Origin: Nitrospirota bacterium | Lineage (GTDB): Bacteria > Nitrospirota > Thermodesulfovibrionia > Thermodesulfovibrionales > UBA6898 | Assembly: GCA_021811105.1 (NCBI GenBank) | Contig: JAJZPM010000002.1 | Span: forward strand, 62,001 to 126,000 | DNA: 64,000 nt | Reading direction: 5' to 3' | In this document: in pieces, positions 1-35,587 of the stretch | Layout of the letters: each line of letters begins with the position of its first letter | Numbering within the stretch: the stretch's first letter is position 1 | Notes under the pieces: generated by a model | The model's input: only the letters and a program-made list of their open reading frames with translations | What the model was told of the DNA's origin: nothing | Database searches by the model: none | Translations under genes and position numbers: made by a program

Positions 1-300
1 CTCTTTTCCGCAAACATGAGGGGAATCGGCGCTTCGGACAGCTATGCCAAAGCCGTGATGACGGCGGAGTCCAAGATGCGGGAGGTCCTCGATGACGAGG
101 CGATACACGAAAAGACGTGGTCCGAAACAACGGATAACGGATATCGGATAGACGGCTCGATCGCCGGAACTGAAGAGAAGCGCACCGAAAACCTGCCGGT
201 GGAACTTCTGGATATAACCCTGACGGTCCACTGGACCGACGGGACCAAGGAGCGCGCGGTCAGCCTCAAGACGATGAAGCTGATCCCGAAAAAAGTATGA
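1..300 (+). CDS. gspI: Type II secretion minor pseudopilin GspI-like, C-terminal fragment
   Basis: The reading frame is open from the first base, so the N-terminus (with the prepilin peptidase site and hydrophobic helix) lies outside the window; the ATG at 16 is probably internal. About 99 residues are visible. The fragment has the soluble pseudopilin character of GspI/PilV proteins (a SYAKAVMTAESKMREVL helix, then beta-rich sequence with HWTDGTKERAVSLKTMKL near the end). Its stop codon overlaps the start of the next pseudopilin gene (ATGA at 297-300), indicating translational coupling. GspI belongs to the GspH-K tip complex of the T2SS pseudopilus. Assignment to GspI rather than another minor pseudopilin rests mainly on gene order before J and K. 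Confidence 0.6.
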   Translation, partial: LFSANMRGIGASDSYAKAVMTAESKMREVLDDEAIHEKTWSETTDNGYRIDGSIAGTEEKRTENLPVELLDITLTVHWTDGTKERAVSLKTMKLIPKKV

Positions 301-1064
301 CGCGCAACTGCCGGCAGAGGGGACCCGCATCCGGACGCGCGCTGCTCAGTGACAACGAGCGGGGCTTCACGCTTCTGGAACTCCTGATCTCCTTTGCGAT
401 CCTCGGCATCATCGTGGTGATCATCGCGGGCGCGATGAAGGTCAGTATCCAGGCGGTCGCCAGAGGCGAAAAGAAGCTCGCATCGATCGAGCGGTTCAGG
501 ACATCCCTGAATGCCGTCGAGGCCCAGATCCAGTCCCAGTCCGGCCTCACCTATGACGACAACGGCGAGAGGAAGCGCTACTTTAAAGGTGACCGCGAAT
601 CGATGCAGTTGTCCACGAATTATTCCCTATGGGGGGGTGACAAGGGATATGCGGTCGTGTCGTACGAGGTCGAGACCGACAGGGACGGGAAGCAGTCGCT
701 GAAGGCGACCGAAACCGTGATCGGCATGGACAACCCGAGGGAAACAACGCTCTTCAATCTCATGGACAAAATCTATTTCGAATATTTTTACAAGGGGCCG
801 ACGGACGAAAAGGGGACCTGGGTGGACTCATGGACCGACGACGTCACGGTCCCCGAGAAGGTGAAGCTCCACCTCATTGCGGGTGAGAGGGACTTCTCGA
901 TCATCATCCCGTTGAGGACGGCTTCTTCGCAAAACGCCACTTCAACTCCGCCTTCCTTTACAAATTCGCAGAATGGCCCCGTATCCATACCGGGGATCTT
1001 TTCAAAGCTGCAGAATATGCAGAACAGTGCCGCACCGGCACCCTTTTCGAGTCTGAACAGATAA
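297..1064 (+). CDS. gspJ: Type II secretion minor pseudopilin GspJ
   Basis: 255 residues. A type IV prepilin leader is visible: a basic N-terminus, then RGFTLLELL at about residues 22-30, with the processing Gly before Phe, the invariant Glu at +5, and a hydrophobic helix (ISFAILGIIVVIIAG). The soluble part is long, as in GspJ, and ends in a Ser/Pro/Asn-rich tail. GspJ pairs with GspI and GspK at the pseudopilus tip and is anchored in the inner membrane before assembly. The gene overlaps its upstream neighbour by 4 bases, and its stop overlaps the gspK start at 1064, so the pseudopilins are co-translated. Family is clear; the J assignment comes from size and position between I and K. Confidence 0.8.
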   Translation: MTRNCRQRGPASGRALLSDNERGFTLLELLISFAILGIIVVIIAGAMKVSIQAVARGEKKLASIERFRTSLNAVEAQIQSQSGLTYDDNGERKRYFKGDRESMQLSTNYSLWGGDKGYAVVSYEVETDRDGKQSLKATETVIGMDNPRETTLFNLMDKIYFEYFYKGPTDEKGTWVDSWTDDVTVPEKVKLHLIAGERDFSIIIPLRTASSQNATSTPPSFTNSQNGPVSIPGIFSKLQNMQNSAAPAPFSSLNR

Positions 1065-2062
1065 TGACAAAACACAGTGAAAACATAGGTCCCGCTCGCC
1101 AGCGCATTCCCGGCCTCACGGACGACAGCCGGGGGATCGCACTGATCATGGTCCTCTGGGTGCTGGCTGTCCTGATGGTGATCGTCCTCTCTTTCTCATA
1201 TCTGTCGCGGACGGAGTCCCTTGCCGCGGTTGCGTTCAGACAGGGCGTCGAGAAGAAGTTCCTCGCGGAGGCCGGCATAGAAAGAGCGGTGATGGAGATC
1301 ATTTACCGCAGGATGAACCCGAACGTGCAGACCGATGTCGAAGGCGTCACGACCTGGAGAGTCGACGGTGCCCCCTACACCGTGACAACCGGCGGCGACC
1401 ATTATACGGTCGCCATTACCGATGAATCGGGCAAGATAAACCTCAACACTCTCAACGACACATCTGTTATAATACTGAAAAACCTTCTGATTAATATGGG
1501 TGTTGAGGGGACGCAGGCCGACACGATCGCCGATTCCGTTCTGGACTGGAAAGACCCCGATGACCTTGTGAGGTTGAACGGCGCCGAAAGCGACTACTAT
1601 ATGGCCCTTCCAAACCCCTACAAGGCGAAAAACGCCAATTTCGATACGCTTGAAGAGCTCTTGCTCGTAAAGGGGATGACACCTGAGATACTATACGGCG
1701 ACGGGACAAAGAAGGGCATTATCGATTTCCTTACGGTGAATGCGAACAGCGCCCAAATCAACGTAGACACCGCGCCGAAGGAGGTCTTGATGGCGATCCC
1801 CGGCATGACCGCAGACGTCGTCGCTGCGATAATGGACGCCCGGGAGAACCCTGTCGATTATGCAACGGCGATGCAGGGCCTCACCGCGGTCGTCCAGGCC
1901 TCCTTTAACCAGTTCATCACCCATGGAATGACGGGCAACGTCTTCTCGATAGAGTCTTCCGGGTTCAAGGGCGACGCGAAAGGCGGTTATACGATCAAGG
2001 CAACAGTTACCATCGAAGGCGACAACACCTTCAAATATAAATACTACAAGAGTCCGGCATAG
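1064..2062 (+). CDS. gspK: Type II secretion minor pseudopilin GspK
   Basis: 332 residues, the typical large size of GspK. The N-terminus has the leader RGIALIMVLWVLAVLMVIV (residues about 23-41), followed by the AEAGIERAVMEI helix characteristic of GspK. The middle contains GKINLNTLN and, later, INVDTAPKEVLMAIPGM, a helix-hairpin-helix-like segment typical of the family, plus a DSVLDWKDPDDLVRLNGAE region. GspK caps the pseudopilus and controls its length. Unusually for a prepilin, the residue at +5 after processing is not Glu, which is known for GspK. The next gene begins 2 bases after the stop codon. Confidence 0.92.
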   Translation: MTKHSENIGPARQRIPGLTDDSRGIALIMVLWVLAVLMVIVLSFSYLSRTESLAAVAFRQGVEKKFLAEAGIERAVMEIIYRRMNPNVQTDVEGVTTWRVDGAPYTVTTGGDHYTVAITDESGKINLNTLNDTSVIILKNLLINMGVEGTQADTIADSVLDWKDPDDLVRLNGAESDYYMALPNPYKAKNANFDTLEELLLVKGMTPEILYGDGTKKGIIDFLTVNANSAQINVDTAPKEVLMAIPGMTADVVAAIMDARENPVDYATAMQGLTAVVQASFNQFITHGMTGNVFSIESSGFKGDAKGGYTIKATVTIEGDNTFKYKYYKSPA

Positions 2063-2064
2063 AG

Positions 2065-3651
2065 ATGGCTGAAACGATAGCGATAAGGAAACTGACGTCC
2101 CTCGCGGCAGGGTCGGGAGAAAGGCTCAGACGCGTAGGCAAGGCTTTGCTGAAGGTGCTCACCTTCAACGCTTCCGACGACCTGATCTTCCCGCAAAAGG
2201 TCGTCTCCGTATCGATTGAGAAAGGCGGCCTGTCGATCGCTTACGGGTCGAGGTTCCTGTCGGGGATCGCCGTCAGGAAGGCAAAAGAGGCCTTCTTTGA
2301 AGCGGAGCGATTTCCCAATCCGGACGAAGTTGCGGCATCCCTCGCCGTCGCGGTCAACGAATTCGGGGCACCAAGGAGCAACCTGACGCTGAGCATCCCG
2401 AAGGCCTGGACGATCATCAAGACCGCAGAATTCCCTTCCACCGTGAAGGAGAACCTCGCGGACGTTGTCTCATACGAACTCGACCGGCTTATCCCTTTCG
2501 CCGCAGAGGACGCCTTTTTCGATTTCAGGCTCCTCTCGGAAAATAACGGAAAGATCACCATCCTCATTATGGCGGCGAGAGCAGACATGGTGCGCCCCTA
2601 TCTCGCTAGCTTTGCCGAAAGCGGCTTCACCATCGGCAGGATTACGGTAAACCTTTTGGGATTCGGAACGCTCTGCAGGCAGATGAAGGGCGGCTCCGAC
2701 ACGATTTTCGTTAAGATAGACTCCAGGGATTATGAGGGGGCGTGGTTTGCCGGCGATTCCCTGTCGCATATCTTTTCGGGTCCCTTTGCCTCTGCAGAAA
2801 CGAATGCCAGGGCCGATGTAATAACGTCGGAGGTCAGGTCTCTTATAGAGACGGCGAAAGCCCAGGGCCGGTCCCCGAACGTGACGGTATGTATGAAGGA
2901 CAATAACCCGACGCTCGCGGAGATGCTGAAGATGCGGATAACGGTCCCGTTCACGTTCATGAGGCTTGCGGACGCGGGCGTGAGGTTCCAGGGCGAGATC
3001 CCGAAGGGAAGTCCGTTCGCCTCCGTGGGGGCGGTGGTGGAGTCCCTGCAAACAAGACCGCGGGGGGCGAATCTTCTCACAAAGGGAATTTACAGCGAGC
3101 AAAAGCCGCCTGTAACGGTCACTTTCATCCTTCTGGCGGCGATCATTGTTGCCTGGGCGGGTTATCTGATGGCCCCCCTCCGCGTCGAGGGAAAAAGACT
3201 CGCTGAGCTGACGCGGCAGGTCTCTTTGAAACGGGATGAAGTGAAAAAAGTCGAGGCGCTGAAAAAAGAGGTGGACGCGCTGAGCACCGAGGTCGCGACA
3301 GTGAAGGGTTTCAAAGAGGACAGGCCGCTCGATTTGAATCTCCTGAGGGAACTCACCACCGTCCTGCCGAAGACCACGTGGCTTACCCGGGTCAGGATCA
3401 CCGAAACGGGCGTAGATATCGAAGGGTACGCTGCAGCGGCTACCGAGTTGCTGCCGAAACTCGAGGCATCGAAGTACTTCAGGAAGGTCGAGTTCGCGTC
3501 CCCGACGTTCAGGGACGTTAGGATGAATGCAGACCGTTTCGTGATACGTATGGAAATCGAGGGGGCAAAGAAGATCGAGGAAACTCTTGTAAAGCCTGCG
3601 GCAGGTCAGAAAAAGACAGAGACTGAAGGGCCGAAGAGTGAAAAAAAATAA
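2065..3651 (+). CDS. gspL: GspL-like T2SS assembly protein (PilM-like plus PilN-like domains)
   Basis: 528 residues, longer than a usual GspL of about 400. Residues about 35-345 look like the cytoplasmic actin-like domain of PilM/GspL (IEKGGLSIAYGSRFLSGI near the start; the SYELDRLIPFAAEDAFFDF segment is typical of PilM family proteins). One transmembrane helix follows (FILLAAIIVAWAGYLMAPL, about 352-370), then a coiled coil rich in Lys/Glu, and a periplasmic PilN-like domain (LLRELTTVLPKTTWLTRVRI). GspL links the assembly ATPase GspE to the inner-membrane platform with GspM and GspC. The 3' end overlaps the following gene by 14 bases. It can be read as a PilM-PilN fusion doing the GspL job. 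Confidence 0.78.
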   Translation: MAETIAIRKLTSLAAGSGERLRRVGKALLKVLTFNASDDLIFPQKVVSVSIEKGGLSIAYGSRFLSGIAVRKAKEAFFEAERFPNPDEVAASLAVAVNEFGAPRSNLTLSIPKAWTIIKTAEFPSTVKENLADVVSYELDRLIPFAAEDAFFDFRLLSENNGKITILIMAARADMVRPYLASFAESGFTIGRITVNLLGFGTLCRQMKGGSDTIFVKIDSRDYEGAWFAGDSLSHIFSGPFASAETNARADVITSEVRSLIETAKAQGRSPNVTVCMKDNNPTLAEMLKMRITVPFTFMRLADAGVRFQGEIPKGSPFASVGAVVESLQTRPRGANLLTKGIYSEQKPPVTVTFILLAAIIVAWAGYLMAPLRVEGKRLAELTRQVSLKRDEVKKVEALKKEVDALSTEVATVKGFKEDRPLDLNLLRELTTVLPKTTWLTRVRITETGVDIEGYAAAATELLPKLEASKYFRKVEFASPTFRDVRMNADRFVIRMEIEGAKKIEETLVKPAAGQKKTETEGPKSEKK

Positions 3652-4189
3652 GACGCTCGCCATCACGCTTCCCCTTATGCTGGTCCTCCTGGTCGCCGGA
3701 GCATATCGTTACGGTTACGTGAAGATCAGGACGGACATCGACGCCCTCAAGGAAGAGCAGGCGGTGAAACTGAGATTACTCGAAAAGTCGGCCGCCCTGA
3801 TCGCCGAAAAGCCCGATATCGAGAAGCGTCTGGCGGCATTGAAGGGCGAGAGACAGGCGGACAGTACGAAGCTGATCGAAGGACAGACGCTGTCGCTTTC
3901 GGCAGCAACCCTTCAGGAGACGATAAAGGGCATCGTCACCGGCAGAGGAGGATCGATTTCGAGTGAGCGTGTCGGCAAACCCGAAGACTACGGCAATTTC
4001 AAGGTCATCACCGTCAGCATCGATACGGTGATTCCCGACGCAAGGGCGCTCAGCGATATCCTTTACTCGATAGAGACAAGGACCCCCTATCTTGTCGTAA
4101 AGGAGCTCGATACTCGAGTGAGAAATTTCAGGGACCCGAAAGAGTTGACGGTAAAACTCGATATCTCGGCCCTCACGGGAGGGAAATAA
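3638..4189 (+). CDS. gspM: GspM/PilO-like T2SS inner-membrane protein
   Basis: 183 residues. One N-terminal membrane helix (LAITLPLMLVLLVAGAYRYGYV, about residues 7-28), then a charged coiled-coil stretch and a small periplasmic ferredoxin-like domain ending KELTVKLDISALTGGK. This is the layout of GspM and PilO, which dimerise with GspL/PilN in the periplasm. The start lies inside the end of the GspL-like gene (14-base overlap) and the next gene starts 1 base after the stop. Sequence conservation in GspM is low, so the call depends on architecture and on its place between the L-like and C-like genes. Confidence 0.7.
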   Translation: MKKNKTLAITLPLMLVLLVAGAYRYGYVKIRTDIDALKEEQAVKLRLLEKSAALIAEKPDIEKRLAALKGERQADSTKLIEGQTLSLSAATLQETIKGIVTGRGGSISSERVGKPEDYGNFKVITVSIDTVIPDARALSDILYSIETRTPYLVVKELDTRVRNFRDPKELTVKLDISALTGGK

Positions 4190-4190
4190 T

Positions 4191-4952
4191 ATGCAGAAAG
4201 CGCGGCGCATACTGGGCAACCTCAGCGTGATCAACGTCATACTTGCCGTGGTGCTCGTTATGTTCCTCAGTTATGCCGTCTTTCCCATGTTCGGCGAGAC
4301 GGTGAGAATCCGCGTGCAAGTCCCCAAAAAGCAGCCGGCAGCCGCACCCGCCGCCCCGAAACCGGAAGAAGTCAAGACTCCCTCTCCGGCGGATTACGTC
4401 GTGATCGCCGAACAGAACCTTTTCCACCCGGAAAGAAAAATACCGGTCGAAAAAAAGGACGCGGCTGCCCCGTTACCCAAACCCGAGTTCGTCCTCTACG
4501 GGACCTTGCTTACAGACGACCTGCATATCGCATACATGGAGGACAGGAAGGCGCCCCAGAATTCGCCCTCAAGGGGAAAAAAGCAGATACCGGTGAAACT
4601 CGGAGAGTCCCTCAGCGGCTTTACCCTTAAGGAGATAGACACAAATAAGGTGGTAATGGTCAGAGGGGAAGAGAAGATTGATGTCTATCTGAACGATGCC
4701 ACGATGCCTAAAACCCGGGATATGGCTCCGGCTCCCGCCGCTGCAATGGCCCGGCCGACACCCGGAGCCCAGGCGCAGGCCTTTCCCCCGAACCGTGCGG
4801 CGGCAGCCCGCCAGCCGGCTGCGCCAGTGTCCCAAACGCCCGCTCCGCCAACGCAGCCTGCTGCAAGCCAGCCGCCTGCACCGGTCCCATCGGGCAATAA
4901 AGCCGTTCCATCAGCCAGAGACGCTTTCATGCGCCTCTTCAACCGCCGATAA
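4191..4952 (+). CDS. gspC: GspC-like T2SS protein with HR domain and Pro/Ala-rich tail
   Basis: 253 residues: short cytoplasmic N-terminus, one membrane helix (VINVILAVVLVMFLSYAVF, about 12-30), a Pro/Ala/Lys linker, then the homology-region domain that contacts the secretin (VIAEQNLFHPERK followed by FVLYGTLLTDDLHIAYME and VKLGESLSGFTLKEI). The last 80 residues are Pro/Ala/Gln-rich and end in a short amphipathic segment (RDAFMRLFNRR), with no PDZ domain of the kind found in classical GspC. A PilP-like label would fit almost as well. In most operons the secretin gene is adjacent to gspC; here the next gene is unrelated and gspD lies at 33.4 kb. Confidence 0.72.
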   Translation: MQKARRILGNLSVINVILAVVLVMFLSYAVFPMFGETVRIRVQVPKKQPAAAPAAPKPEEVKTPSPADYVVIAEQNLFHPERKIPVEKKDAAAPLPKPEFVLYGTLLTDDLHIAYMEDRKAPQNSPSRGKKQIPVKLGESLSGFTLKEIDTNKVVMVRGEEKIDVYLNDATMPKTRDMAPAPAAAMARPTPGAQAQAFPPNRAAAARQPAAPVSQTPAPPTQPAASQPPAPVPSGNKAVPSARDAFMRLFNRR

Positions 4953-5017
4953 TATTGGCGGGCTTTGGCGGAAGCACAACGCCTGGCAGAATCGATAGCA
5001 AAAAAAGGAAGTTGCTC

Positions 5018-6568
5018 GTGATCAAGGCCGCGGCCGTTGACATAGGGACTTTTGTCTCCAGCATTTTTCTTCTGCCGGCTGCGGTTTTTTTCGCGTTCTT
5101 TTCCCCCTATCTGGAAGGCAATGCAGGCGCTTTTTGGACAGAGATCCATCAGCTGGTTACGTCCGAAGCGACCAGAGTATCGACGGTGCCGCAGGAACTC
5201 TTCCTCTATGCCGGGAGTCCACGCGGCAGCAGTAGTTACAGGAGCACCCTCTCTGAAGGGGCTTACGACGAGGATGCTGATCGCGATCCGAGACTCGGGG
5301 GAGGGGTCTTCGCCTGGTGGGGCCTTTTAAACTGGGGGACTCACTTTTGGGACCCCGCGGGGGGGCCTGCGGGCGGCCTGCTGACAGACGTCGTCGGTTT
5401 TCCCGTAAACGTGGAATCAAAAAACGCGTACCAGCGTGCAATCGATCTCTACAGGGCGGCTGAGAACCTGTATGGGCAAGATCCAGGGGCAGCGTATTAC
5501 CTTCTTGGTAGGGTCTCCCATCTTCTGGCTGACATGGCAACTCCCGCGCACGTCCACCTCGATCCCCACATCTCCGACGCCTCGGCAACGGGGGACGATT
5601 CGTTTGAGGAGTACACGGGTATCAGGTACGGATACCCCGGGCCACTGTCATTCGAGGCGGCCTTCCCTGTCTTGGCGGTCAGCCCGCCTGATCCTGAGCT
5701 CCTTCCGGACGGCGGCTATCGTGACGAGCCGGTCCTTTTCAACATCTTCTATTCGATGGCATCCTTTTCGGCGACGTTTGATAGTGACGACGCCGACGGT
5801 ATCGTCGATCATGGCGCCCGAAGGGGACATAGCATTCCTGTTTCCCGCGGGGACTTAAAAAATGTCTATGCGATCCGGACAGGGTATCCGGACTTGCTGC
5901 TCACCGACGGGTACGATTTCTCGGCGGCAAGGCACAAAGTAGTGCTCCTCGATTCTCTTCTTCGTTCGCTTACTGCTCCGGGCGCGCCATTCGACGGAAT
6001 AAAGCTTGAATTCGAAGGCACCTCGGAATCCCATGCCTTATCCGAGTTCCTGGACACCGACATAGGCGATCACGACCTTGAGACAATGGCCGCTGAGCTG
6101 ATTCCTGATGCGATCGGACATGTAGCATCACTCTATCGAAGATTCTGGACCGATACCCATCCTTCCTTGTCAGGCGTTTTACCCCAGGTCATCTTCGACA
6201 AAGGAGAGAGAGGCAGAATCGTGACGAGGCCCGGCGCCCTCGAATTCGATATCGCCGTAGCTGCGCATGACTGGAACGGCATAAACGTTGACATCTATGT
6301 CTGGGCCGAACTCCTCTATCCTGACCATCAATACCGCCTGTATTATACGGGGGACTGGGTCACCTTCGAAAACATCTCAGAACTAAGACCGGTGATATCC
6401 AATCTCCTGCTCGCCGACGTTCAAGGGGTAAACTGGCAGGTGCTGGGCAGCACCGAACCGCTTCCGGCGGGAATGATCGTAATTCATTTATGCATTCAGA
6501 GGAGCACCGGCAACGTCTTCCGGCCTGCGGAAGCCGTCTGTGGGGGTAACACTGTCAGCGTTGAGTAA
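5018..6568 (+). CDS. Predicted exported zinc-dependent phospholipase C-like protein
   Basis: About 516 residues from a GTG at 5018, chosen because AGGAAG sits 6 bases upstream; a TTG at 4955 is possible but has no such site. The N-terminus has a long hydrophobic segment (FVSSIFLLPAAVFFAFF) that may be a signal peptide or anchor. The segment WGLLNWGTHFWDP and the later GRVSHLLADMATPAHVHLD resemble the His/Asp zinc ligands of the phospholipase C/P1 nuclease fold (Zn_dep_PLPC). The C-terminal 130 residues look like a separate beta-rich domain. It follows the T2SS operon by 65 bases on the same strand, so it may be a substrate. Enzyme activity and substrate are not established by sequence. Confidence 0.6.
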   Translation: MIKAAAVDIGTFVSSIFLLPAAVFFAFFSPYLEGNAGAFWTEIHQLVTSEATRVSTVPQELFLYAGSPRGSSSYRSTLSEGAYDEDADRDPRLGGGVFAWWGLLNWGTHFWDPAGGPAGGLLTDVVGFPVNVESKNAYQRAIDLYRAAENLYGQDPGAAYYLLGRVSHLLADMATPAHVHLDPHISDASATGDDSFEEYTGIRYGYPGPLSFEAAFPVLAVSPPDPELLPDGGYRDEPVLFNIFYSMASFSATFDSDDADGIVDHGARRGHSIPVSRGDLKNVYAIRTGYPDLLLTDGYDFSAARHKVVLLDSLLRSLTAPGAPFDGIKLEFEGTSESHALSEFLDTDIGDHDLETMAAELIPDAIGHVASLYRRFWTDTHPSLSGVLPQVIFDKGERGRIVTRPGALEFDIAVAAHDWNGINVDIYVWAELLYPDHQYRLYYTGDWVTFENISELRPVISNLLLADVQGVNWQVLGSTEPLPAGMIVIHLCIQRSTGNVFRPAEAVCGGNTVSVE

Positions 6569-6857
6569 AATCGAGCAGACGAACCGTAAATGTCTTTACA
6601 AGTCTCGCCTGCCATAGTAAGATAAGGTGTTTCTAAACCGCAAGGAAGTCACTCGCACGCGTTTTGGAAAATTGGACAGGCTGCTTTATGGTGAGGGTGC
6701 CGGGATAGTCGGCAGGAGCGGTCGCGGGCGCACTGTTTACAAGAAAGAAGAAAGGAGGTGAGTATCAGGAACTATTCGAGTCCTGGTTTCTTTGTGTTAA
6801 TACGGGGGTAATTGAGTGTCGCAAAAAAAAGGTCTGAAAAGAAGGAGGGAGAAGATT
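6569..6857 (+). other. Long non-coding leader before a small exported protein gene
   Basis: No convincing gene lies in these 289 bases. A compact hairpin TGCCG-7 nt-CGGCA occurs at about 6689-6705 and a CAGGA...TCCTG pair at about 6767-6784. The G-rich stretch AAGGAGGTGAG near 6754 resembles a ribosome binding site but precedes no persuasive open frame. The word CTAAAC followed within a few bases by GGAAGTCA occurs here and again in the leader of the exported protein gene at 32055. I could not match the leader to a known riboswitch class. It may be a structured 5' untranslated region. Confidence 0.35.
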
Positions 6858-7379
6858 ATGTTAAAAAAAACATTAGTAACGTTGAGTCTGATTCTATGTG
6901 TTATCGCATTTGGGACAACAGCTGCTTACAGCTCGGGGTATCCCGTTGCCGCATTGGGGTCGATCAGCGACAGCAGCCAACCCAGTACGCCTATCAGCAT
7001 TATTGTCCTGGGTAAATTCGATTCGGGCCCGGCCGGCTTTACGCAATCCGAGGCAGAGACCATTTCTCAGACGGTCATGTCGCTGCTAAGCGGGCTGCTG
7101 CCCACGAGCGGCTTCACGATCCTTACCCCCAATCAGCTTGCCTCAACCGCTTTTGCAGATGCCGATGCCGCTAAGTCATTCGTAGCCAACAACTATGCAG
7201 CAGCCGGGATAGACGTCTTCGCGTTTCTCGATATCAAGAAGGCGCCCGCCGTTTCCCAGGCAGCCGGGCAGAACATCAGGATCGACCTCTATGTGTCGGG
7301 CCTATTGGGACCCTCCGAAATGTATATCGCGAGCGTCGAGACGGCGCTTAGTTACGTGCAACTTCTAGGGGGCTTTTAA
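6858..7379 (+). CDS. Small exported protein of unknown function
   Basis: 173 residues from the ATG at 6858, preferred over upstream frames because GGAGGG lies 8 bases before it and because it begins directly with a signal peptide (LKKTLVTLSLILCVIAF, cleavage probably near AYSSG). The mature part is about 145 residues, rich in Ala, Ser and Thr, low in charge and without cysteines. Its composition and pattern (IDVFAFLDIKKAP, IRIDLYVSGLLGPSEMYIASVETALSYV) suggest a small alpha/beta domain. I recognise no family. A strong terminator follows, so the gene is probably a single transcription unit behind a long leader, near the T2SS operon. Confidence 0.75.
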   Translation: MLKKTLVTLSLILCVIAFGTTAAYSSGYPVAALGSISDSSQPSTPISIIVLGKFDSGPAGFTQSEAETISQTVMSLLSGLLPTSGFTILTPNQLASTAFADADAAKSFVANNYAAAGIDVFAFLDIKKAPAVSQAAGQNIRIDLYVSGLLGPSEMYIASVETALSYVQLLGGF

Positions 7380-7499: not shown

Positions 7500-7946
7500 T
7501 TAATACATGAACAGCGGCGGCCAGGCAGTCGCGATACTCCCATTTTCTACCAGCAGAACAGCAGCGCCAAACAACTGGTTGGACACACAGTAAACGTCAT
7601 ACAATGAGTCTCCGAACCCGGCCTCAGACAAGGTGATTATTTTCTTGCCGAAGAACGGGAGTGTGTAGGACTTCTGTGTCTGCTCGTTGGAAAAATCGGT
7701 AAACCAGCACGAAACGTTGATCGAGAAATTGTTAAAATTCGAGACGATCAGGATATTCGACCAGCTCATTGCGGACAGCTCAGGAACAACAGGGAACCAA
7801 ATCGCAAAGTTCGCCTTTGTCCCGGTTGCGCTGGTATAGGCATCCTGAAGGTTCTGCGGGATCTTGGAGCTATTGTCAACGGCGCCCGCTGTGCCGAACG
7901 AGAAAAGCAAAGCAACTATAGCAAGAACAAGCACTAACCCTTTCAT
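7500..7946 (-). CDS. Exported protein consisting of the subtilase C-terminal domain alone
   Basis: 148 residues with a clear signal peptide (KGLVLVLAIVALLFSFGTAGA). The mature part is almost entirely one domain (about residues 48-148) that aligns by eye with the last 100 residues of the neighbouring subtilisin-like protease: shared landmarks are FPxVP, VSN, a Lys-Ile-Ile strand (KKIITLSE versus KRIIDVTH), a Cys-Val/Glu-Ser step, FGAAxLV and PPL at the end. It has two cysteines. The family is unknown to me. A standalone domain next to a protease bearing it suggests a secretion, surface-attachment or partner-binding role. The gene is the last of a minus-strand group with the lipoprotein and protease and lies before the terminator at 7421. 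Confidence 0.75.
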   Translation of the reverse strand: MKGLVLVLAIVALLFSFGTAGAVDNSSKIPQNLQDAYTSATGTKANFAIWFPVVPELSAMSWSNILIVSNFNNFSINVSCWFTDFSNEQTQKSYTLPFFGKKIITLSEAGFGDSLYDVYCVSNQLFGAAVLLVENGSIATAWPPLFMY

Positions 7947-8046
7947 GTCATCCCCCTTTTTTGTCTTAGTTCATATGGTGCAATCATTTTGCTAATTTCA
8001 CTCCACTCCTTAAGACAAGAAATCCTGTTCTCACCCCCCTTCCTTT

Positions 8047-8541
8047 TTATCGCTTCTTTCCGTTTTGCATCTCCTGCCCTGTCACCTCCTTTCCGTCTTT
8101 CGAGAATTTTATGAGTACGTCAGCGAGGTCCGGTTTTATCAGCTCGACATACCACACCCCATCCTTTTTCACCCATCTGTTCCTGACCCGTTGCTCGATC
8201 ATATAAGGAGAACCGAGAAGCGCATGCAGGATCTTTACGGTAAGCTTTGTCTCCACCATGGCCTGCCCCTCTGCCTCCAGCACGATCTGCTCAACCTTGT
8301 AGGAAGCAATTCCGGACCCGTCAGGCCCCTGTTTGCGGGAATCCACATGGCGCATATATTCATCTCTCAGCGAGGGATCTATCGCGTCCCTCAGCGCAGT
8401 CCTGTCATTGTTCTGCCTGGCCTGCCAATAAATGCCCACCCTTTCGGCGAGCATTTCATCGTCGGACGCCTTCCTGACCGCTGCCTGCGGCGCACACGAA
8501 GACATGATACATATCACCAATGCAAAATAGATGGTTTTCAT
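8047..8541 (-). CDS. Lipoprotein of unknown function (paralogue of the one at 32.3 kb)
   Basis: 164 residues from ATG at 8541, which overlaps the protease stop codon as ATGA and has AGGAGG upstream. Signal sequence with a lipobox: FALVICIMSSCAP, giving Cys at about residue 17. After it comes KASDDEMLAERVGIYWQARQ and, near the end, WVKKDGVWYVELI, a beta-strand pattern like nuclear-transport-factor-2-fold or SnoaL-like proteins. The lipoprotein ending at 32289 shares the same blocks in the same order. Outer-membrane location is likely, as no Asp follows the lipid Cys. Function unknown; translational coupling to the protease suggests a linked role. Confidence 0.75.
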   Translation of the reverse strand: MKTIYFALVICIMSSCAPQAAVRKASDDEMLAERVGIYWQARQNNDRTALRDAIDPSLRDEYMRHVDSRKQGPDGSGIASYKVEQIVLEAEGQAMVETKLTVKILHALLGSPYMIEQRVRNRWVKKDGVWYVELIKPDLADVLIKFSKDGKEVTGQEMQNGKKR

Positions 8542-10355
8542 CGTGGGGTTATTCCTCCTACAAGATGCATCGGCCCTCCGATCAGGGGCGGGAGGGCCAA
8601 AACCCCTCCCCCGTCTTCCGGTACCAATATTGCCGCCGCCCCGAAAAATTCCAGGGATTCGCACTCTATGAAAAGGGAGTCTTCTGCGGGGCCGTAATGC
8701 GTCACATCAATAATCCGCTTCTCAAACTTATTCAGCACAACAGTCTTCAGGGTCCGCTCCCCTTCGTTCATTTCCACGACGTTCATGTATATCGTGACCG
8801 GCCGCTCCAACGGGTTTGAAACCACGAAAAGAGAATAATGCCCCTTCACAAGCGGCACGTGGGGAAATGACAGGCTCACATTAGTGGGATAAGGGGTAAC
8901 TTCAAAGTCGACCTCGTTGCTTTTCCCTTCAGACGTCACTACGTAAACATGTCCTGCTACTGCACCGTCAGGGACTTCAGCGACAACCTTTTCATTCGAC
9001 CACGAGACAATCGGCGCATTGAGGTTATTGGAAAAAACAACCGTGCCCGCAGCAGCCTTGAATCTCGACCCTCTGATTGTGACTTCCGCGCCGGCCGGAC
9101 CCCTTTCCGGTGAAATCGCGTAAATATATGGCCCCGTCACGCTCGTCGACAGCGCCCGATGGGCATTGATCCTCCCGCCGGTAAGAGACAATCCCTTGAG
9201 GCTTTGCAGCACGTCGGCGGTCCTGAGGAGCTGGTCCTTCAGCTGGGAAACGGTCAACCCAGGCTTTGCGGCGAGTACGAGCCCTGCCAGTCCGCTGACA
9301 AAGGCGACGGACATGGAGGTGCCGCTCATGCTCTCGTAGCCATTGCCGGGCACCGTGCTCAGGATATCGATCCCGGGTGCTGATACGCTCACCGTGTTCC
9401 TCCCGAAATTCGAAAAGAAGGCGGGTTGATCCGATTGGTCCGAAGCCGCTACGGATATGATATTCGGCAGATCATAGTTGGCGGGATAAATAGGGACCAT
9501 ATCGTTATTAACGGCTTCGTTTCCTGCCGCCGCCAAAAAAAGAATCTCCCCTGCGTTTTGTATGGCCTCCATCTCAAAAGTGGAAAAATCGTTGCTTCCG
9601 TAACTCATGTTAAAGATCATCGCCCCGTGGTCCTTCGCGTACCCGATAGCGTCGATCTCTTCCGCCACAGTCCCAGTTCCGTCCGGACCCACGAATTTCA
9701 GCGCCATGATGGAGGTCGTCCAGTTCACTCCCGCCACTCCGATGCCGTTGTTGCCCGCGGCCCCGATTATACCGGCAACATGCGTACCGTGCCCCTCGTC
9801 ATCCATCGGGTCATTCGTGCCCGTGATCGCGTTATAGCCCCTACCGCCCCAAATATTCGCCTGCAGATCACGATGTGTGTAATCAACACCGGAGTCCGCT
9901 ACCGCGATAACGACATCATGTCCTCCGGTCGAGATCTGCCAGGCATCAGGACTTTGAATGTTAAGATGGCCCCACTGGGCGCCAAACAACGGATCATTGG
10001 GTATTACGCCCAGGAGTTTTCTTTCATAATTTGGCTCGGCATACTCAACGTCCTGAAGCGTTTTCAACCTCTTGACAGCCTGGACCGCCGGTTCGACACT
10101 GCTCAGCCTGACGAGATAAGAATCAATGAGCGGTAACCGTCTCATTATCCTCATGCCCATCGCGCTCAGGGCTTCCTGCCTCCTCGTTGAAGCATCGCCG
10201 GCATACCCTCCTCTGAACTTCACAAGGACCACTCCTTCTCCGTAGCCCGGCCGCTCGCCCGCAAGCAACAAAGAAGGGAATATGAGAACTGTACAGAGAA
10301 CAAAACCCCAGAGGACCTTGCCCGCTGGCGAATTATTGCACGCTAATAAAGGCAT
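8538..10355 (-). CDS. Exported subtilisin-like serine protease with IPT/TIG and novel C-terminal domain
   Basis: 605 residues from ATG at 10355 (GAGGTG five bases upstream; a TTG 12 bases earlier is less likely). Order: signal peptide (VLWGFVLCTVLIFPSLLLA), an I9-like propeptide (YGEGVVLVKFRGG to VEYAEPNY, about 37-110), and a peptidase S8 domain with triad Asp154 (VADSGVD), His189 (DDEGHGTHVAG) and Ser347 (SGTSMSVAF), oxyanion Asn279 (AAAGNE). Then an IPT/TIG Ig-like domain (about 405-490) and a 100-residue C-terminal domain shared with the small exported protein at 7500. All catalytic residues are present, so it should be active outside the cytoplasm. It is a good candidate T2SS substrate. 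The downstream lipoprotein start overlaps its stop. Confidence 0.93.
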   Translation of the reverse strand: MPLLACNNSPAGKVLWGFVLCTVLIFPSLLLAGERPGYGEGVVLVKFRGGYAGDASTRRQEALSAMGMRIMRRLPLIDSYLVRLSSVEPAVQAVKRLKTLQDVEYAEPNYERKLLGVIPNDPLFGAQWGHLNIQSPDAWQISTGGHDVVIAVADSGVDYTHRDLQANIWGGRGYNAITGTNDPMDDEGHGTHVAGIIGAAGNNGIGVAGVNWTTSIMALKFVGPDGTGTVAEEIDAIGYAKDHGAMIFNMSYGSNDFSTFEMEAIQNAGEILFLAAAGNEAVNNDMVPIYPANYDLPNIISVAASDQSDQPAFFSNFGRNTVSVSAPGIDILSTVPGNGYESMSGTSMSVAFVSGLAGLVLAAKPGLTVSQLKDQLLRTADVLQSLKGLSLTGGRINAHRALSTSVTGPYIYAISPERGPAGAEVTIRGSRFKAAAGTVVFSNNLNAPIVSWSNEKVVAEVPDGAVAGHVYVVTSEGKSNEVDFEVTPYPTNVSLSFPHVPLVKGHYSLFVVSNPLERPVTIYMNVVEMNEGERTLKTVVLNKFEKRIIDVTHYGPAEDSLFIECESLEFFGAAAILVPEDGGGVLALPPLIGGPMHLVGGITPR

Positions 10356-10408
10356 ATGCCACCTCAACGCCGACAGTTACTGACGTTTATCTTAGAACTT
10401 CCTGATTC

Positions 10409-27262: not shown

Positions 27263-30200
27263 TCATTTACAGTAGATAGATAACCTCCACTGAGTGTAAA
27301 CAGGATCATCATTGACCACGGCGAGATAGTAAGTCTTGTTGGGAACAGAGTTGCTAATTTCGAACATCTCTGACTCGCCGCTTGTTGAGAATGCATACCA
27401 GTAATGGGAGGATGAGCCCGCAGGATAGGCGAGATTAAACGCGCTCGTATTGGCATTGGCCCCATGCTGAAAAAGGGCATTGTAGACGGTCAAGGCGTAG
27501 TCTGTCGTTCCGAAATCAGTGTCGGTGCCCAGCATATTATTATTGCCTGCATAGGGAACCAGTCCCGCAAGCCATATTTGTACCGTATTGCCCGGACAAC
27601 CTGTGGCGGGAATTTGGAAGCTGAAGAACTTCGCAACAGTACCCGAAGGAGCCGCGGGATTTGAGTAGAAGTTGTTAGAACTGTTCAATACAAATTGGGT
27701 ATATACGATCTGAGAGGCGCCGCTCTGCGAAACGCCGAATGGCTGCGGGATGGATGAGTCGCCGACTGTGATGCTGCCGGTCCTTGAGGCCGTTTGTGTA
27801 TTGGCGGAAACACTGTAACTCGCAGTGGAAGGACCGTCGCCCGTACCGCTGCCGCCCGAGGTAATGGTTATCCATGTGGCGCTGGGCGTCACACTCCATG
27901 TCTTCTGATCACAGCCTGTCGTGACAAACTGGAACGTGCCGCTGCCGCCGACGGAGCCGAAGCTCTGGCTTGTCTGCGGAGCGATGTATGCAACGCACGG
28001 AGGTGCAGAAGTCGACGACGCGGCGGCCTGCACCACGATATAGGTCTTGTCAGCCACAGATATCGTTCCTCCTCTCGCACCGCCCGTATTTGCCGGGACC
28101 GTATAAGTCACAGTGCCGTTTCCGGTCCCGGTGCTTCCCGCGGTAATCGTGATCCAGCTTGCGCTGCTCGCAGCGCTCCAGGTGCAGCCGGTACCGGCTG
28201 TTACCGCGATCGTACCGGTGAAAGTACCATCGCCCGTGCCTGTCGAGTATGCGATGGGCTGACTATCGGTAGAAGAGAGAGAATACGTGCAGGCAGGCGT
28301 CTGCGCCCCGCTCTGCGTTATTGTAACCTTATGGGTTGCATCCAGGGTGATAACCCCTGTCCTCTGACTCGTCGATGTATTGGCGGAAACCGAAAACATC
28401 GCCGAGCCGCTTCCCGTCCCGGTGCTTCCGGACGTGAAGGTGAGCCAGGACGAATCGCTCGAAAGGCCCCAGCCGGCGCAGCCTGTGCCTGAGGCGGTTA
28501 CGGTAAAGGTGCCGGGGCCTCCCTGGGAGCTGAAGGAAAGCGGGACAGCAGAGACGGAATAGCTGCATGCCGGAGGAGCGCTGTTTGACTGCGTAACAAC
28601 CAGTTGCGTCCCCGGCGATTCATTAATGTAAATAGTCGCCGTATCGGATACGCTTGCTGCCGGAACGGTATAACTTACGGTGCCGCTGCCGCTGCCGCTC
28701 GCCGGTGAAAATGACGTCGGCCAGCTCTTGGTGCTCTTTATCGTCCAGGGGCAGCCCGATCCCGCCGTAACAGTGAAACTTCCATTGCCTCCGGAGGTGC
28801 CGAATGTAGTCGCCCCGTTCGCCGCTATGCTGTAAAAGCAGCTGGAGCCTGAGCTCGTACGGCTCACGGCAACCGTCTTACCCGCAACAGTAAGGCCCCC
28901 GCTCTTCGCTGTCGTGCCGGCGGCCACACTGAACCTAACGGTTTGGGTGCCGGTATACTGACGCCCTGAGGTGATGCTCAGCCATGTACTGTAAAAAAGT
29001 GAGACGTCGGCGGTCCATGTGCAGCCGGTGGGCGCCGTCACATTGATCGAGCCCGATCCACCCGAGGCCCCAAAAGTCGCGGGCTGCGCAGCTCCGACGG
29101 AGGGTTGGCAAGTACTGCCGGCCCCGTCCTGGGTAACGGTAAAGGTCTGGGAACCTATGGCGATATGGCCTGTACGCAGGCTCGTTCCAGCGTTGGCCGC
29201 AACAGAGTAGGAAACCAGGCCGTTTCCTGTGCCGCTCCCCCCCGAGCTAACGGTGATCCAGGCGGCATCGGACTGAGCAGTCCAGTTGCAGCCTGCCCCC
29301 GCCGTCACTGTGATAGAATCCTGTCCGCCGGACGAGGCGAACTGTTTGGCTGAAGGGTTGATCTGGGGCGGCTGACTGCATGCCTGCTGCAATCCGGTTA
29401 CCATTATCGGCAGTTGGAAGGAGTCCGGCAAACCGGCTGAGGAGTGCCCGGCCGACGAGGCGACCCTGCTGACCGCAATCAGGATGTTCCCCTCGCTGAC
29501 CTGGCCGGCCGCTGCCGGGGCAAATACGATATTAAAGTTGCAGCCCTCGCCGGCTGCGAACGGTGCATGACCGCTGCATGTGTCGTCGATAATCTGATAA
29601 TCGCCTGTGGACGAAGCGATACCATCGATCGTCAGCATATCCTGCGCCGCGTCGCCCGGGTTCGTTATCGTCACCTGTTGCGTCGCTCCAGAACTGGCCT
29701 GGCCGAAGTTGACGCAAGAGTTAGATATAGAGAAATACGGAGGTGTTACGAGGAAAGAGGTTTCCCAAATGTAGAAATTGTCGGCGGCCGTGTCGCCGGC
29801 TGGGGTCACCCCCAGATATAAGTAGTAGACACCGGGCGTAACGGCAGCCGTGGATATGTCCCCGAATATCGGTTGCCACACAAGCGGCACGTTCAGCATC
29901 CAGGGCACAAGCTGGGTATACGGGGCAAGAGCGCCGGAGGAATCAAGGAGATAAACGTCAGGGCTTATGGAAGGCGCATAGATTCCCATATAGACATCAA
30001 CGTTGCCTGCAAATTGGGGAAAACCCGCAAGAAGGCTGATAAGGTTGCCGCCGTTAGCCACTGACCCTGCGCCGAGAGGCCTTATCTGCTGAATGTCGGT
30101 CCCATCCCCAAGCGCCGGCTGATCCGACACACAATAATAAGGGAAGACCTGTTGCCCCGCGGGCAGCGGCAGGTACTGCTGTGTCGCAGCCTCCAAAAGG

Positions 30201-30295
30201 GCCGGCCGGAGCACCAGAAGACCGGACAAAAGACACGCCCCAATAAGGAATATTTTACCGATCTTAGTCATTGTGTTCGTCAGAACTACCTTCAT
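27263..30295 (-). CDS. Exported protein with six BACON-type Ig-like repeats
   Basis: 1010 residues from ATG at 30295 (GGAGGT eight bases upstream). Signal peptide KIFLIGACLLSGLLVLRPALLEA. An N-terminal region (about 35-195) is followed by an ASPM/HYDIN-like sandwich (about 195-300, VNFGQASSGATQQVTITNPG). Then six tandem 85-95-residue BACON repeats, each with an SGGxGSxxVTA start, CxWTA, WITITSGxxGTGxG and a final VTQ-type strand, separated by a Cys-containing linker. The last 140 residues form another beta domain (FFSFQIPATGCPGNTVQIW...). BACON domains bind carbohydrates, mucin or proteins. No catalytic domain is seen. Probably a surface or secreted adhesin. Preceded by a candidate sigma-54 promoter. 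Confidence 0.88.
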   Translation of the reverse strand: MKVVLTNTMTKIGKIFLIGACLLSGLLVLRPALLEAATQQYLPLPAGQQVFPYYCVSDQPALGDGTDIQQIRPLGAGSVANGGNLISLLAGFPQFAGNVDVYMGIYAPSISPDVYLLDSSGALAPYTQLVPWMLNVPLVWQPIFGDISTAAVTPGVYYLYLGVTPAGDTAADNFYIWETSFLVTPPYFSISNSCVNFGQASSGATQQVTITNPGDAAQDMLTIDGIASSTGDYQIIDDTCSGHAPFAAGEGCNFNIVFAPAAAGQVSEGNILIAVSRVASSAGHSSAGLPDSFQLPIMVTGLQQACSQPPQINPSAKQFASSGGQDSITVTAGAGCNWTAQSDAAWITVSSGGSGTGNGLVSYSVAANAGTSLRTGHIAIGSQTFTVTQDGAGSTCQPSVGAAQPATFGASGGSGSINVTAPTGCTWTADVSLFYSTWLSITSGRQYTGTQTVRFSVAAGTTAKSGGLTVAGKTVAVSRTSSGSSCFYSIAANGATTFGTSGGNGSFTVTAGSGCPWTIKSTKSWPTSFSPASGSGSGTVSYTVPAASVSDTATIYINESPGTQLVVTQSNSAPPACSYSVSAVPLSFSSQGGPGTFTVTASGTGCAGWGLSSDSSWLTFTSGSTGTGSGSAMFSVSANTSTSQRTGVITLDATHKVTITQSGAQTPACTYSLSSTDSQPIAYSTGTGDGTFTGTIAVTAGTGCTWSAASSASWITITAGSTGTGNGTVTYTVPANTGGARGGTISVADKTYIVVQAAASSTSAPPCVAYIAPQTSQSFGSVGGSGTFQFVTTGCDQKTWSVTPSATWITITSGGSGTGDGPSTASYSVSANTQTASRTGSITVGDSSIPQPFGVSQSGASQIVYTQFVLNSSNNFYSNPAAPSGTVAKFFSFQIPATGCPGNTVQIWLAGLVPYAGNNNMLGTDTDFGTTDYALTVYNALFQHGANANTSAFNLAYPAGSSSHYWYAFSTSGESEMFEISNSVPNKTYYLAVVNDDPVYTQWRLSIYCK

Positions 30296-30340
30296 GAGTA
30301 TTACCTCCGCAAACTGCAAATCATATTCGTAAATACACTA

Positions 30341-32288: not shown

Positions 32289-32753
32289 TTATCTTTGACC
32301 TCGTCTCGAAGGTTGATGGTACCAGACCCCATCGACCTTTATCCATTTGTCCGACACCGGAAAATTCCGTTCGATTCTGCGGGCTTGCTCACCCTCGGGT
32401 AGCATTATCTCCACCCGTAAAGACAAGTCTACATCGGCCATGTCCCCGGCCACTCTCTTTATATCTCTTATCTCGGCGTGCCTCCATTTGACAGCCGACG
32501 TATTAACACCCTTTACATATTTCACCACACTCACCGTCTTCCTGTAAAAGGGGTCCTCGTATTCATAGCTCTTGTCGAACTCTCCGTTGATCTTGAGATT
32601 CCAGTATGACATTACCCTCGCCTTCAGTTCCTCTTCGTCAGATGCGTTCTTCAGTGCTTCTTTTGTAGCACATCCGGTCGAAATAAGCAAGAAAAAAATT
32701 ACAAAAAATCTAATATACTCATGCAGTCCGCCACGTCTTTTCGGACCTCTCAA
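32289..32753 (-). CDS. Lipoprotein of unknown function (paralogue of the one at 8.0 kb)
   Basis: 154 residues. No ATG fits; TTG at 32753 is chosen because GGAGG sits five bases before it and a sigma-70-like promoter lies just upstream. Signal sequence YIRFFVIFFLLISTGCA with the lipid Cys after STG. It shares with the lipoprotein at 8047 the blocks NASDEEELKARVMSYWN and KWIKVDGVWY in the same order and spacing, so the two are paralogues. The fold may be NTF2-like. Function unknown. It is placed between the secretin gene and the exported-protein genes. Confidence 0.75.
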   Translation of the reverse strand: MRGPKRRGGLHEYIRFFVIFFLLISTGCATKEALKNASDEEELKARVMSYWNLKINGEFDKSYEYEDPFYRKTVSVVKYVKGVNTSAVKWRHAEIRDIKRVAGDMADVDLSLRVEIMLPEGEQARRIERNFPVSDKWIKVDGVWYHQPSRRGQR

Positions 32754-32776
32754 AGAAGCCTCCAATTGTCCCCAAA

Positions 32777-33437: not shown

Positions 33438-35570
33438 TCAGTGTTGTCCCTCCGGAGGAACGCCGCCGCCTGCATCGTTTTTACCGTTCCCATCTTTCGG
33501 CGTTCCCTCTTTTATGAATTTATCTATCTCTGTGTCCTTTGTGGCCCCTTTATAGCGTTTTATATAGTTCGATGTGATTTCGCCGGCCTCTTTCTCGTTT
33601 CTTATGACATGGGGCGTAAGGAGGATGATCGTCTCTTTTCTCGTGACTTTGTCCTCCTTGTTGCCGAAGAGGGCGCCGAGAATCGGGATCCTGCTGAGAA
33701 AGGGTAGCCCCGTCGTTCCATGAGTATTGTCTTCCCGTATGAGCCCGCCGATGATGATCGTCTCACCGTCCCGGGCAACGAGGTTCGAGGTCGCCTCTGT
33801 CTTGTCGATCGCGACCTCACCCAGCCCACCAACCGTTACTGTGCTGGAACTGACCGCAGAAATCTCCTGTGAAAGCTCGAGGGAGATCAGCCCGCTGTCG
33901 TTCACCTGCGGCTTTACCTTGAGGATTATTCCTATATCTTTATACTGTATTGTGGAAGTAAGAACCGGGGTAACGGTCGTAGTTGAAGCAATCTGAGAGT
34001 TAGTCGAAGTTGCGATAGGGATCTGCTGCCCTATTTGTATTCTCGCCTCGCGGTTGTCCGATACCAGGATATGCGGCGCAGCAACCACCTTTGCCCTCGA
34101 CCGGTCTTCAAGCGCGGTAAGCACCGCACGTAAATTCCCTGACGGGTCCTTACCTATGAAAGTAAATCCTTTGTCCTGCGGAGTTGATGAAAGACCTGCC
34201 GCATTATTAAATGCATCACCACTGAGGTTCACGCCATTCTTGAAAGGTTTTATGCCAGAAAACCTGACATCGGTATTCAGCGACCATGAAAGCCCGTAAC
34301 TCAAATTATCATTCAGGGTAATATCGACGATCAGGCCCTCTATCATCACCTGTCTCGGCGGGATATCGATTTTCTTGATGGTATCGTATATGAGTGCATA
34401 ATCTTCGGGCGTGGCCAATATAACGATCGAATTCGTCACTTCATCGGGGATGATCCGCGTGACCTCCGAAACAAGCGCCTCTCCTGCCTGCGGCCCCATC
34501 GAAATCTGCGGCTGAGCAAGCGCAGGCTGAGGCGGCTGCCCCGGCAAAGTCGTCCGGGCGGGTGCAGCGGTTTTGGAAGCGGGGGGCTTCTGCCCCTGGA
34601 ATATCTGCTGCAGAAGAGAGGCAACGTCTTTCGCCTTGCTGTTCTGGACAGAATATACGAATACCTGCGGCGTCACCTCTTTCAACTCTTCGCTGTCGAA
34701 TATTCTGACAAGTTCGAGAAGCCTCTTTACGTTTGTGTCGGTATCGACGATGATCACGTAGTTGCTCTTCGGCACATCTACGATCACTGCGTTCTTGGAA
34801 AGAAAAGGCGTGAGGACCCGCACCATTTCCGACGACTGTATATATTTGACCTGGACAACCTGCACCAGGGCCTTCCCGGTTATTTTTACCTTTTCGGGGT
34901 CCCGGCCGAGACCCACCGGCGCCGGCTCCTTCGATATATCTGAGATCGGGATTATCCTGTAAAGCCCGCCTTCCTCCACAATACCGATGCCGTTTAGCTT
35001 AAGGATCACTTCCATCAGCGGGAGAACGTCTTCTTTCGCGATAGGCTCGACCGACCTGAAGGTCACCCTTCCTTTGACGCTCGGGTCGACTATATAGTTC
35101 ACCTTGAGCACATCGCCGAATATCGTCTGTATGACTGAATAGACATCGGCGTCGTCGAAGTTGAAGCTAACCTCGCCCCTCCTCACGACGGGCGGCAGTT
35201 GTGCCGGGGTGGGCGCTGCAGGATGAGCTACCGGAGGTACGGCAGGCTGCGTCGCGCGTGGGACTGCGGGCTGAGCAACGGGAGGTGCAGCAGGCCCGGT
35301 TGTGGGAGGTACAACAGGCTGGACAGGCGCAGGAGGCGCCGGATGAGCAGTTGAAGTCGCAGTTGGCACAAACGGGATAGGGGGCCGTGAGGCTGCCGGC
35401 AGCGCAGGAAAAGCAGGAGGAGTTGCCGGACCGTCAGCAGCGGCTAAAGACCTGCCCGCAGGTTGAACCATGTTGTAAGATTTCGTCCCTGCAGACGAAT
35501 ATCCCGCGAACACTAAAAAAAAGCAACACGACAGAAGAAATATTAAGACAGCAGTTCCTTTTGTATGCAT
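33438..35570 (-). CDS. gspD: Type II secretion secretin GspD
   Basis: 710 residues from ATG at 35570 (GAGGT upstream; the GTG at 35576 overlaps that site). Signal peptide (AVLIFLLSCCFFLVFAGYSSA), then an 85-residue Pro/Ala/Val-rich linker (about 45-130) with tandem PPVAxPAVP-like units. N0 domain starts at about 134 (VSFNFDDADVYSVIQTIF), followed by N1-N2 ring-building domains and a second Pro/Ala/Gln insert near residue 335-355. The secretin core ends with LPFLSRIPILGALFG and ETIILLTPHVIRNEKEA. It forms the outer-membrane channel. Separated by 28 kb from the other gsp genes in the window. Its promoter overlaps an inverted repeat. Confidence 0.95.
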   Translation of the reverse strand: MHTKGTAVLIFLLSCCFFLVFAGYSSAGTKSYNMVQPAGRSLAAADGPATPPAFPALPAASRPPIPFVPTATSTAHPAPPAPVQPVVPPTTGPAAPPVAQPAVPRATQPAVPPVAHPAAPTPAQLPPVVRRGEVSFNFDDADVYSVIQTIFGDVLKVNYIVDPSVKGRVTFRSVEPIAKEDVLPLMEVILKLNGIGIVEEGGLYRIIPISDISKEPAPVGLGRDPEKVKITGKALVQVVQVKYIQSSEMVRVLTPFLSKNAVIVDVPKSNYVIIVDTDTNVKRLLELVRIFDSEELKEVTPQVFVYSVQNSKAKDVASLLQQIFQGQKPPASKTAAPARTTLPGQPPQPALAQPQISMGPQAGEALVSEVTRIIPDEVTNSIVILATPEDYALIYDTIKKIDIPPRQVMIEGLIVDITLNDNLSYGLSWSLNTDVRFSGIKPFKNGVNLSGDAFNNAAGLSSTPQDKGFTFIGKDPSGNLRAVLTALEDRSRAKVVAAPHILVSDNREARIQIGQQIPIATSTNSQIASTTTVTPVLTSTIQYKDIGIILKVKPQVNDSGLISLELSQEISAVSSSTVTVGGLGEVAIDKTEATSNLVARDGETIIIGGLIREDNTHGTTGLPFLSRIPILGALFGNKEDKVTRKETIILLTPHVIRNEKEAGEITSNYIKRYKGATKDTEIDKFIKEGTPKDGNGKNDAGGGVPPEGQH

Positions 35571-35587
35571 CAGCACCTCAATATAAT

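Follow-up and report, generated by a model that had tools for sequence, protein, structure and literature searches.

A C-terminal domain of a Nitrospirota subtilase is also encoded as a free exported protein in a conserved three-gene cassette

The window analysed here is a 64,000-nucleotide stretch of a Nitrospirota genome in which an exported subtilase (P) and a small exported protein (S) are encoded near genes of a type II secretion system (T2SS). Why should the tail of a secreted protease be encoded twice, once attached to the enzyme and once on its own? A sequence-only reading of the locus had offered two answers for the shared domain, here called X: a secretion or surface-targeting module for the T2SS, or a binding domain.

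The similarity that had been seen by eye between the last 100 residues of the protease and its 148-residue neighbour was confirmed by BLASTP (33% identity over 104 amino acids, E 4e-9). Identity is about 32-34% over ~100 residues, and the region comprises the last ~105 residues of P and nearly all of mature S. In a Smith-Waterman comparison the P tail and S scored 93, whereas 5000 shuffles of S reached 53 at most (Gumbel p about 7e-10), and comparison of S with whole P gave p 1e-7. The C-terminal X of P and S are thus homologous. Each of the landmarks first picked out, FPxVP, VSN, K-x-I-I, FGAA and PPL, falls within the alignment. The small protein had been described as little more than a signal peptide plus this domain, and it does consist of a signal peptide (judged by eye, from a hydrophobic run that ends in AGA), a linker of about 20 residues and domain X. 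The boundaries of P and S had been drawn correctly, but a third gene between them, encoding the predicted lipoprotein L, had been overlooked (Table 1).

Table 1. Features of the P-L-S cassette, in window coordinates
Feature	Position	Strand	Basis
P, exported S8 subtilase, 605 aa	8538..10355	-	Pfam matches above cut-off; invariant catalytic residues
Domain X in P, aa about 492-597	8565..8882	-	BLASTP/Smith-Waterman alignment with S; predicted beta-sandwich
L, 164-aa predicted lipoprotein, MSSC near N-terminus	8047..8541	-	Sequence; syntenic orthologues in two genomes
S, 148-aa exported protein, signal peptide plus domain X	7500..7946	-	Alignment; orthologues in two genomes
Domain X in S, aa about 46-148	7503..7811	-	Alignment; predicted eight-stranded beta-sandwich
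Perfect 13-nt inverted repeat with 7-nt loop	7420..7452	.	Repeat search; between convergent S and + strand gene 6816-7379

P belongs to the Peptidase_S8 family (PF00082, E 4.9e-54) and also matches PF01833 and PF22148 above cut-off. Its domains run from an N-terminal signal region through a Fervidolysin-like prodomain (residues 39-113), Peptidase_S8 (149-387) and IPT/TIG (about 409-488) to X (about 492-593). The catalytic triad D154, H192 and S347 and the oxyanion residue N279 are invariant in all three orthologues, and the best PDB relative of the catalytic region is deseasin MCP-01 (3vv3, 1.4e-68). The start of P is best placed at the ATG at 10355, with a TTG also present upstream at 10367. 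P, L and S form a small operon-like cassette, likely an operon, in which the P stop and L start codons overlap as ATGA and 100 nt separate L from S. L bears a weak NTF2-like resemblance, with SnoaL_2, DUF4440 and TcaA_5th matches all below threshold. No Pfam or NCBIfam model matched X above cut-off, nor did any in Pfam match L. The inverted repeat beyond S is a possible bidirectional terminator, at which a terminator scan made no call because of its short T run.

The order P, L, S on one strand is kept in two genomes from another genus of the same Nitrospirota family, G005 and G006 (Nitrospirae MAGs JAKAHR010000008.1 and JAKAGF010000197.1), with gaps of 2 nt between P and L and about 55 nt between L and S. 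The P-L coupling, an overlap or a 2-nt gap, is tight in all three genomes. The window proteins share about 49% (P), 38-39% (S) and 27-28% (L) of their residues with the orthologues. Among P orthologues identity is 60% in the S8 domain but 28-31% in the C-terminal domain, so X evolves fast. L-like lipoproteins spread more widely than X, being present in 27 of the 230 class genomes, and a paralogue of L at 32289-32765 on the minus strand of the window adjoins the GspD secretin gene, a neighbourhood also seen in G016.

AlphaFold2 models, built on six sequences only, predicted X to be all-beta in both contexts with matching strand order: an eight-stranded beta-sandwich in S (pLDDT 70-85 in strands, mean 62) and a beta-sandwich in the P tail (pTM 0.49). 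The beta-sandwich fold of X is thus supported by prediction, with moderate confidence. When the S model, with its mean pLDDT of 62, was compared to the PDB using Foldseek, the top match was 1nc7 (TM1070; E 2.3e-4, TMt 0.63), followed almost entirely by Anabaena sensory rhodopsin transducer (ASRT) structures 2ii7, 2ii8 and 2ii9, with carbohydrate-binding modules (CBMs) further down. The P tail matched generic Ig-like, TIG-containing proteins, largely driven by its TIG domain. ASRT (PF07100) and TM1070/1nc7 belong to the ASRAH superfamily (De Souza et al. 2009), which are proposed to bind sugars and to work, often, as dyads or tetrads with a cleft at the dimer interface, and which conserve an Asn after strand 2 and a Trp at strand 1 (PMC2739507). 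On the S model X would resemble ASRAH domains, of which extracellular forms are known, in its predicted eight-stranded beta-sandwich and its best structural matches. X also has the strand-2 Asn, which lies in an SN pair invariant in all six X sequences; in S this pair closes the predicted strand 61-69. Unlike them, X has the Trp near strand 1 in all three S copies and none of the three P copies, and lacks SHE..C, the His/Cys signature of the ASRT ligand pocket. ASRT was dropped as a direct sequence relative because its profile comparison with X (hhalign score 9.9) was equalled or beaten by 150 of 200 column shuffles.

DUF5719 (PF18986) gave sub-threshold matches in two of the six X members (E 1.2e-4 to 7e-4). 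The likeness is local, to strands 2-3 in the P copies; it covers 37 of 319 model positions in a family of different protein architecture, and whole G005 P reaches 19.2 bits, below the curated gathering cut-off of 26.2 bits. The X profile also matched extracellular repeats of a protein from G048 (score 26.1, with shuffles reaching no more than 16.8), and this protein itself has a sub-threshold DUF5719 match. Together these matches suggest a weak sequence link between X and DUF5719. We suspect that DUF5719 is the actinobacterial ASRAH family that De Souza et al. described; the literature searched makes no mention of DUF5719. On these models X would be ASRAH/DUF5719-like in fold, not a proven member. 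We know of no report of an ASRAH domain on a subtilase.

The predicted fold and the sub-threshold DUF5719 match agree with, and lean slightly towards, the binding domain proposed in the sequence-only reading; X probably serves in binding and not as a tag for secretion. The explanation we prefer, at a probability of roughly 0.42, is that X is a lineage-specific ligand- or surface-binding tether of the protease, and that S is a free copy that pairs with X or shares its ligand. It is supported by the 1nc7, ASRT and CBM structural matches together with the invariant strand-2 Asn and the DUF5719 match, and by a cassette whose order and strand are kept in a second genus although it sits elsewhere, and in another orientation, with respect to the T2SS genes. 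The homology of the P tail and S, the tight P-L coupling, the tree of the six X domains and the within-genome S-P similarity (both given below) also favour it. The lack of a profile link to ASRT, the modest model confidence, the absent SHE..C signature and the Trp missing from the P copies speak against it. P would be made as a Sec precursor that carries an N-terminal prodomain, and its catalytic triad is intact. The TIG and X tail of P would form an accessory region in which X, as an ASRAH/DUF5719-like beta-sandwich, attaches to a ligand, with a glycan or other surface partner the most plausible candidate, and this contact would hold the protease at its site of action. S would be X exported without a protease, most likely pairing with the X of P or occupying the same ligand, thereby adjusting anchoring or occupancy, and L would be a partner lipoprotein with a possible part in docking the complex at a membrane. 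We infer the extracellular location, as well as the ligand binding, the P-S pairing and the role of L.

C-terminal beta-sandwich domains of S8 proteases can bind substrate, as does the PKD domain of MCP-01 (PMC11294657). Like P, MCP-01 and S8 proteases with PKD, PPC or beta-jelly-roll tails carry C-terminal accessory domains, which can bind insoluble substrate (PMC11294657); P differs in that its tail is TIG plus X, and in that X is also encoded alone in the cassette.

Rather unlikely, in our estimate, is that S serves as a dedicated regulator or inhibitor of P, or as a decoy, through X-X contact or competition for the X ligand. Beta-sandwich tails commonly pair homotypically, and the conserved co-location of S with P would suit such a role. 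So would an excess of similarity between S and P of the same genome: S-P similarity is 34% within the window genome compared to 17-25% across genomes. The within-genome excess exceeded a simulated no-coevolution null on a fixed tree at P about 0.01, in a single post-hoc test on about 108 columns, which hints, as a weak signal, at coevolution or gene conversion. Among three topologies for the six X domains, the one joining S with S and P with P was best, grouping within genomes was marginal (p-AU 0.06) and cross grouping was rejected (p-AU 0.008). Based on this best topology, the P/S duplication is probably older than the divergence of the two genera, and S and P have probably been maintained as separate copies. 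Against a regulator, S is like the tail and unlike the prodomain or any protease-inhibitor family; a prodomain-type inhibitor was dropped because S resembles the tail only.

It is quite unlikely that X serves as a generic Ig-like spacer or stabilising domain extending the protease from the surface, with S a structural or adhesive part unrelated to P activity. A TIG plus beta-sandwich tail and the generic Ig-like matches of the P tail fit this explanation, as does a Kelch domain in place of X in a TIG-bearing subtilase of G026 (845 aa, L110 398-2935), where TIG is followed by a Kelch-like tail without X, so that the post-TIG tail is swapped. A spacer leaves the conserved free exported copy in the same cassette unexplained.

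Under the T2SS proposal, X would act as C-terminal sorting domains do, being recognised by the T2SS for secretion or surface sorting, and S would be a minimal substrate or adaptor. P and S both have signal peptides, and gspJ-gspM lie within about 10 kb of the cassette in the window and in G005. T2SS secretion signals are structural and poorly defined (PMC5449463), so a folded module is compatible with the sequence. The distribution of X argues against it. Of the 27 family genomes, three have X (that of the window, G005 and G006), whereas 22 have a GspM relative, 18 of them strong (E 7e-52 or better). X is absent from the other four genomes searched of the window's own genus, and within its own genome it is found on P and S only, with four other subtilases lacking it. 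A profile search, set beforehand as the check on this proposal, used a profile of six X sequences, three from P and three from S (A2). Across 396 genomes of the phylum and 230 of the class it found clear X members only in P and S of the same three genomes, and no C-terminal enrichment on other exported proteins, the outcome that the sequence-only reading had named as refuting. A widened profile (A10) added no clear member among the 230 class genomes. Full-length P matches were likewise limited to the three genomes, though related subtilases occur in 111 of the 230. These searches covered one phylum by profile and sequences elsewhere by short patterns; scans of genome contigs returned just the two MAG loci already known, and plasmids and viral contigs none.

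Several other matches were set aside. Weak A2 hits in five genomes of the same order (E 2e-4 to 0.009) were chance matches to FabG-like short-chain dehydrogenases (SDRs) followed by a ketosynthase, and SDR and LDH matches in the PDB were of the same chance kind. Downstream in G005, two adjacent and closely similar exported proteins of about 600 aa, not assigned to a family (L012 10687-13960, minus strand), were rejected as relatives of X (hhalign P 0.18).

The T2SS neighbourhood itself was compared across the family. Window positions 297-4952 encode an N-methylated pseudopilin, GspK, a GspL-like protein with PilM/PilN domains, GspM and a likely GspC without a Pfam match, and the secretin gene (33438-35576) lies past a polysaccharide island with a Wzm/Wzt-type ABC exporter. 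A 1018-aa protein with four to five BACON-type domains is encoded between the T2SS gene blocks (27263-30319, minus strand). P and S occur at none of 15 T2SS loci besides those of the window, G005 and G006, two of the 15 being short contig ends. PIG-L directly follows gspC in several of these other loci, so the window order of gspC, extra genes, S-L-P and PIG-L looks like an insertion at the gspC/PIG-L junction. The extra genes (4955-7379, plus strand) are two exported-looking genes, one encoding 537 aa that match Zn-dependent phospholipase C below threshold, the other 173-187 aa; among the T2SS loci compared they follow gspC only in the window genome, and they may represent additional cargo specific to this strain. 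The G005 cassette is turned the other way with respect to gspC and sits 3.6 kb farther along, and in G006 a separate, short contig carries it. Where the cassette lies and how it is oriented with respect to the T2SS genes differ between the two genera. The site is a T2SS/polysaccharide junction common to most of the family, which keeps T2SS genes beside a similar variable polysaccharide island. Since proximity to the T2SS is a property of this shared variable region, adjacency is no evidence here of T2SS targeting. These findings make a T2SS-read module improbable; of the surface-targeting suggestion, the T2SS-linked part is not supported, and a T2SS-independent surface tether is possible.

GlyGly-CTERM and JDVT-CTERM sorting tails of secreted serine proteases resemble X as C-terminal regions that possibly decide surface fate, but the combination of Gly-rich tail, membrane helix and basic end is lacking in P and S. 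No NCBIfam model for GlyGly-CTERM, JDVT-CTERM or T9SS sorting domains matched P or S at E up to 1, and these tags and a T9SS CTD-like module were dropped. Elsewhere in the same genome, contig C52 carries two nearby paralogous subtilases (L001 1003-2814 and L002 991-2937) whose tails are Gly-rich, with CSV, a membrane helix and a basic end, and resemble JDVT-CTERM below cut-off. Subtilase surface fate in this genome may be encoded by different C-termini.

That S is a remnant of partial protease-gene duplication without selected function would suit the patchy distribution and the absence of S from the other four same-genus genomes searched, but is highly improbable, as an intact frame, a signal peptide and synteny in two genera at 38-39% identity indicate long persistence and the duplication is probably older than the genus split.

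A more elaborate form of the tether, to which we give a small chance, is a hetero-oligomeric, glycan-binding surface complex of the protease and its separately exported tail copy, in which the free copy sets the amount anchored. In that case a secreted subtilase would be regulated by two components, with a lipoprotein as its membrane dock. The arrangement is uncommon but not revolutionary, and X is a rare domain missed by domain libraries. If the tether explanation is true, X would be an uncatalogued beta-sandwich family possibly connecting subtilases with ASRAH/DUF5719-like folds. The cassette would then offer a compact, testable case in which the tail domain of a secreted protease is additionally provided in trans.
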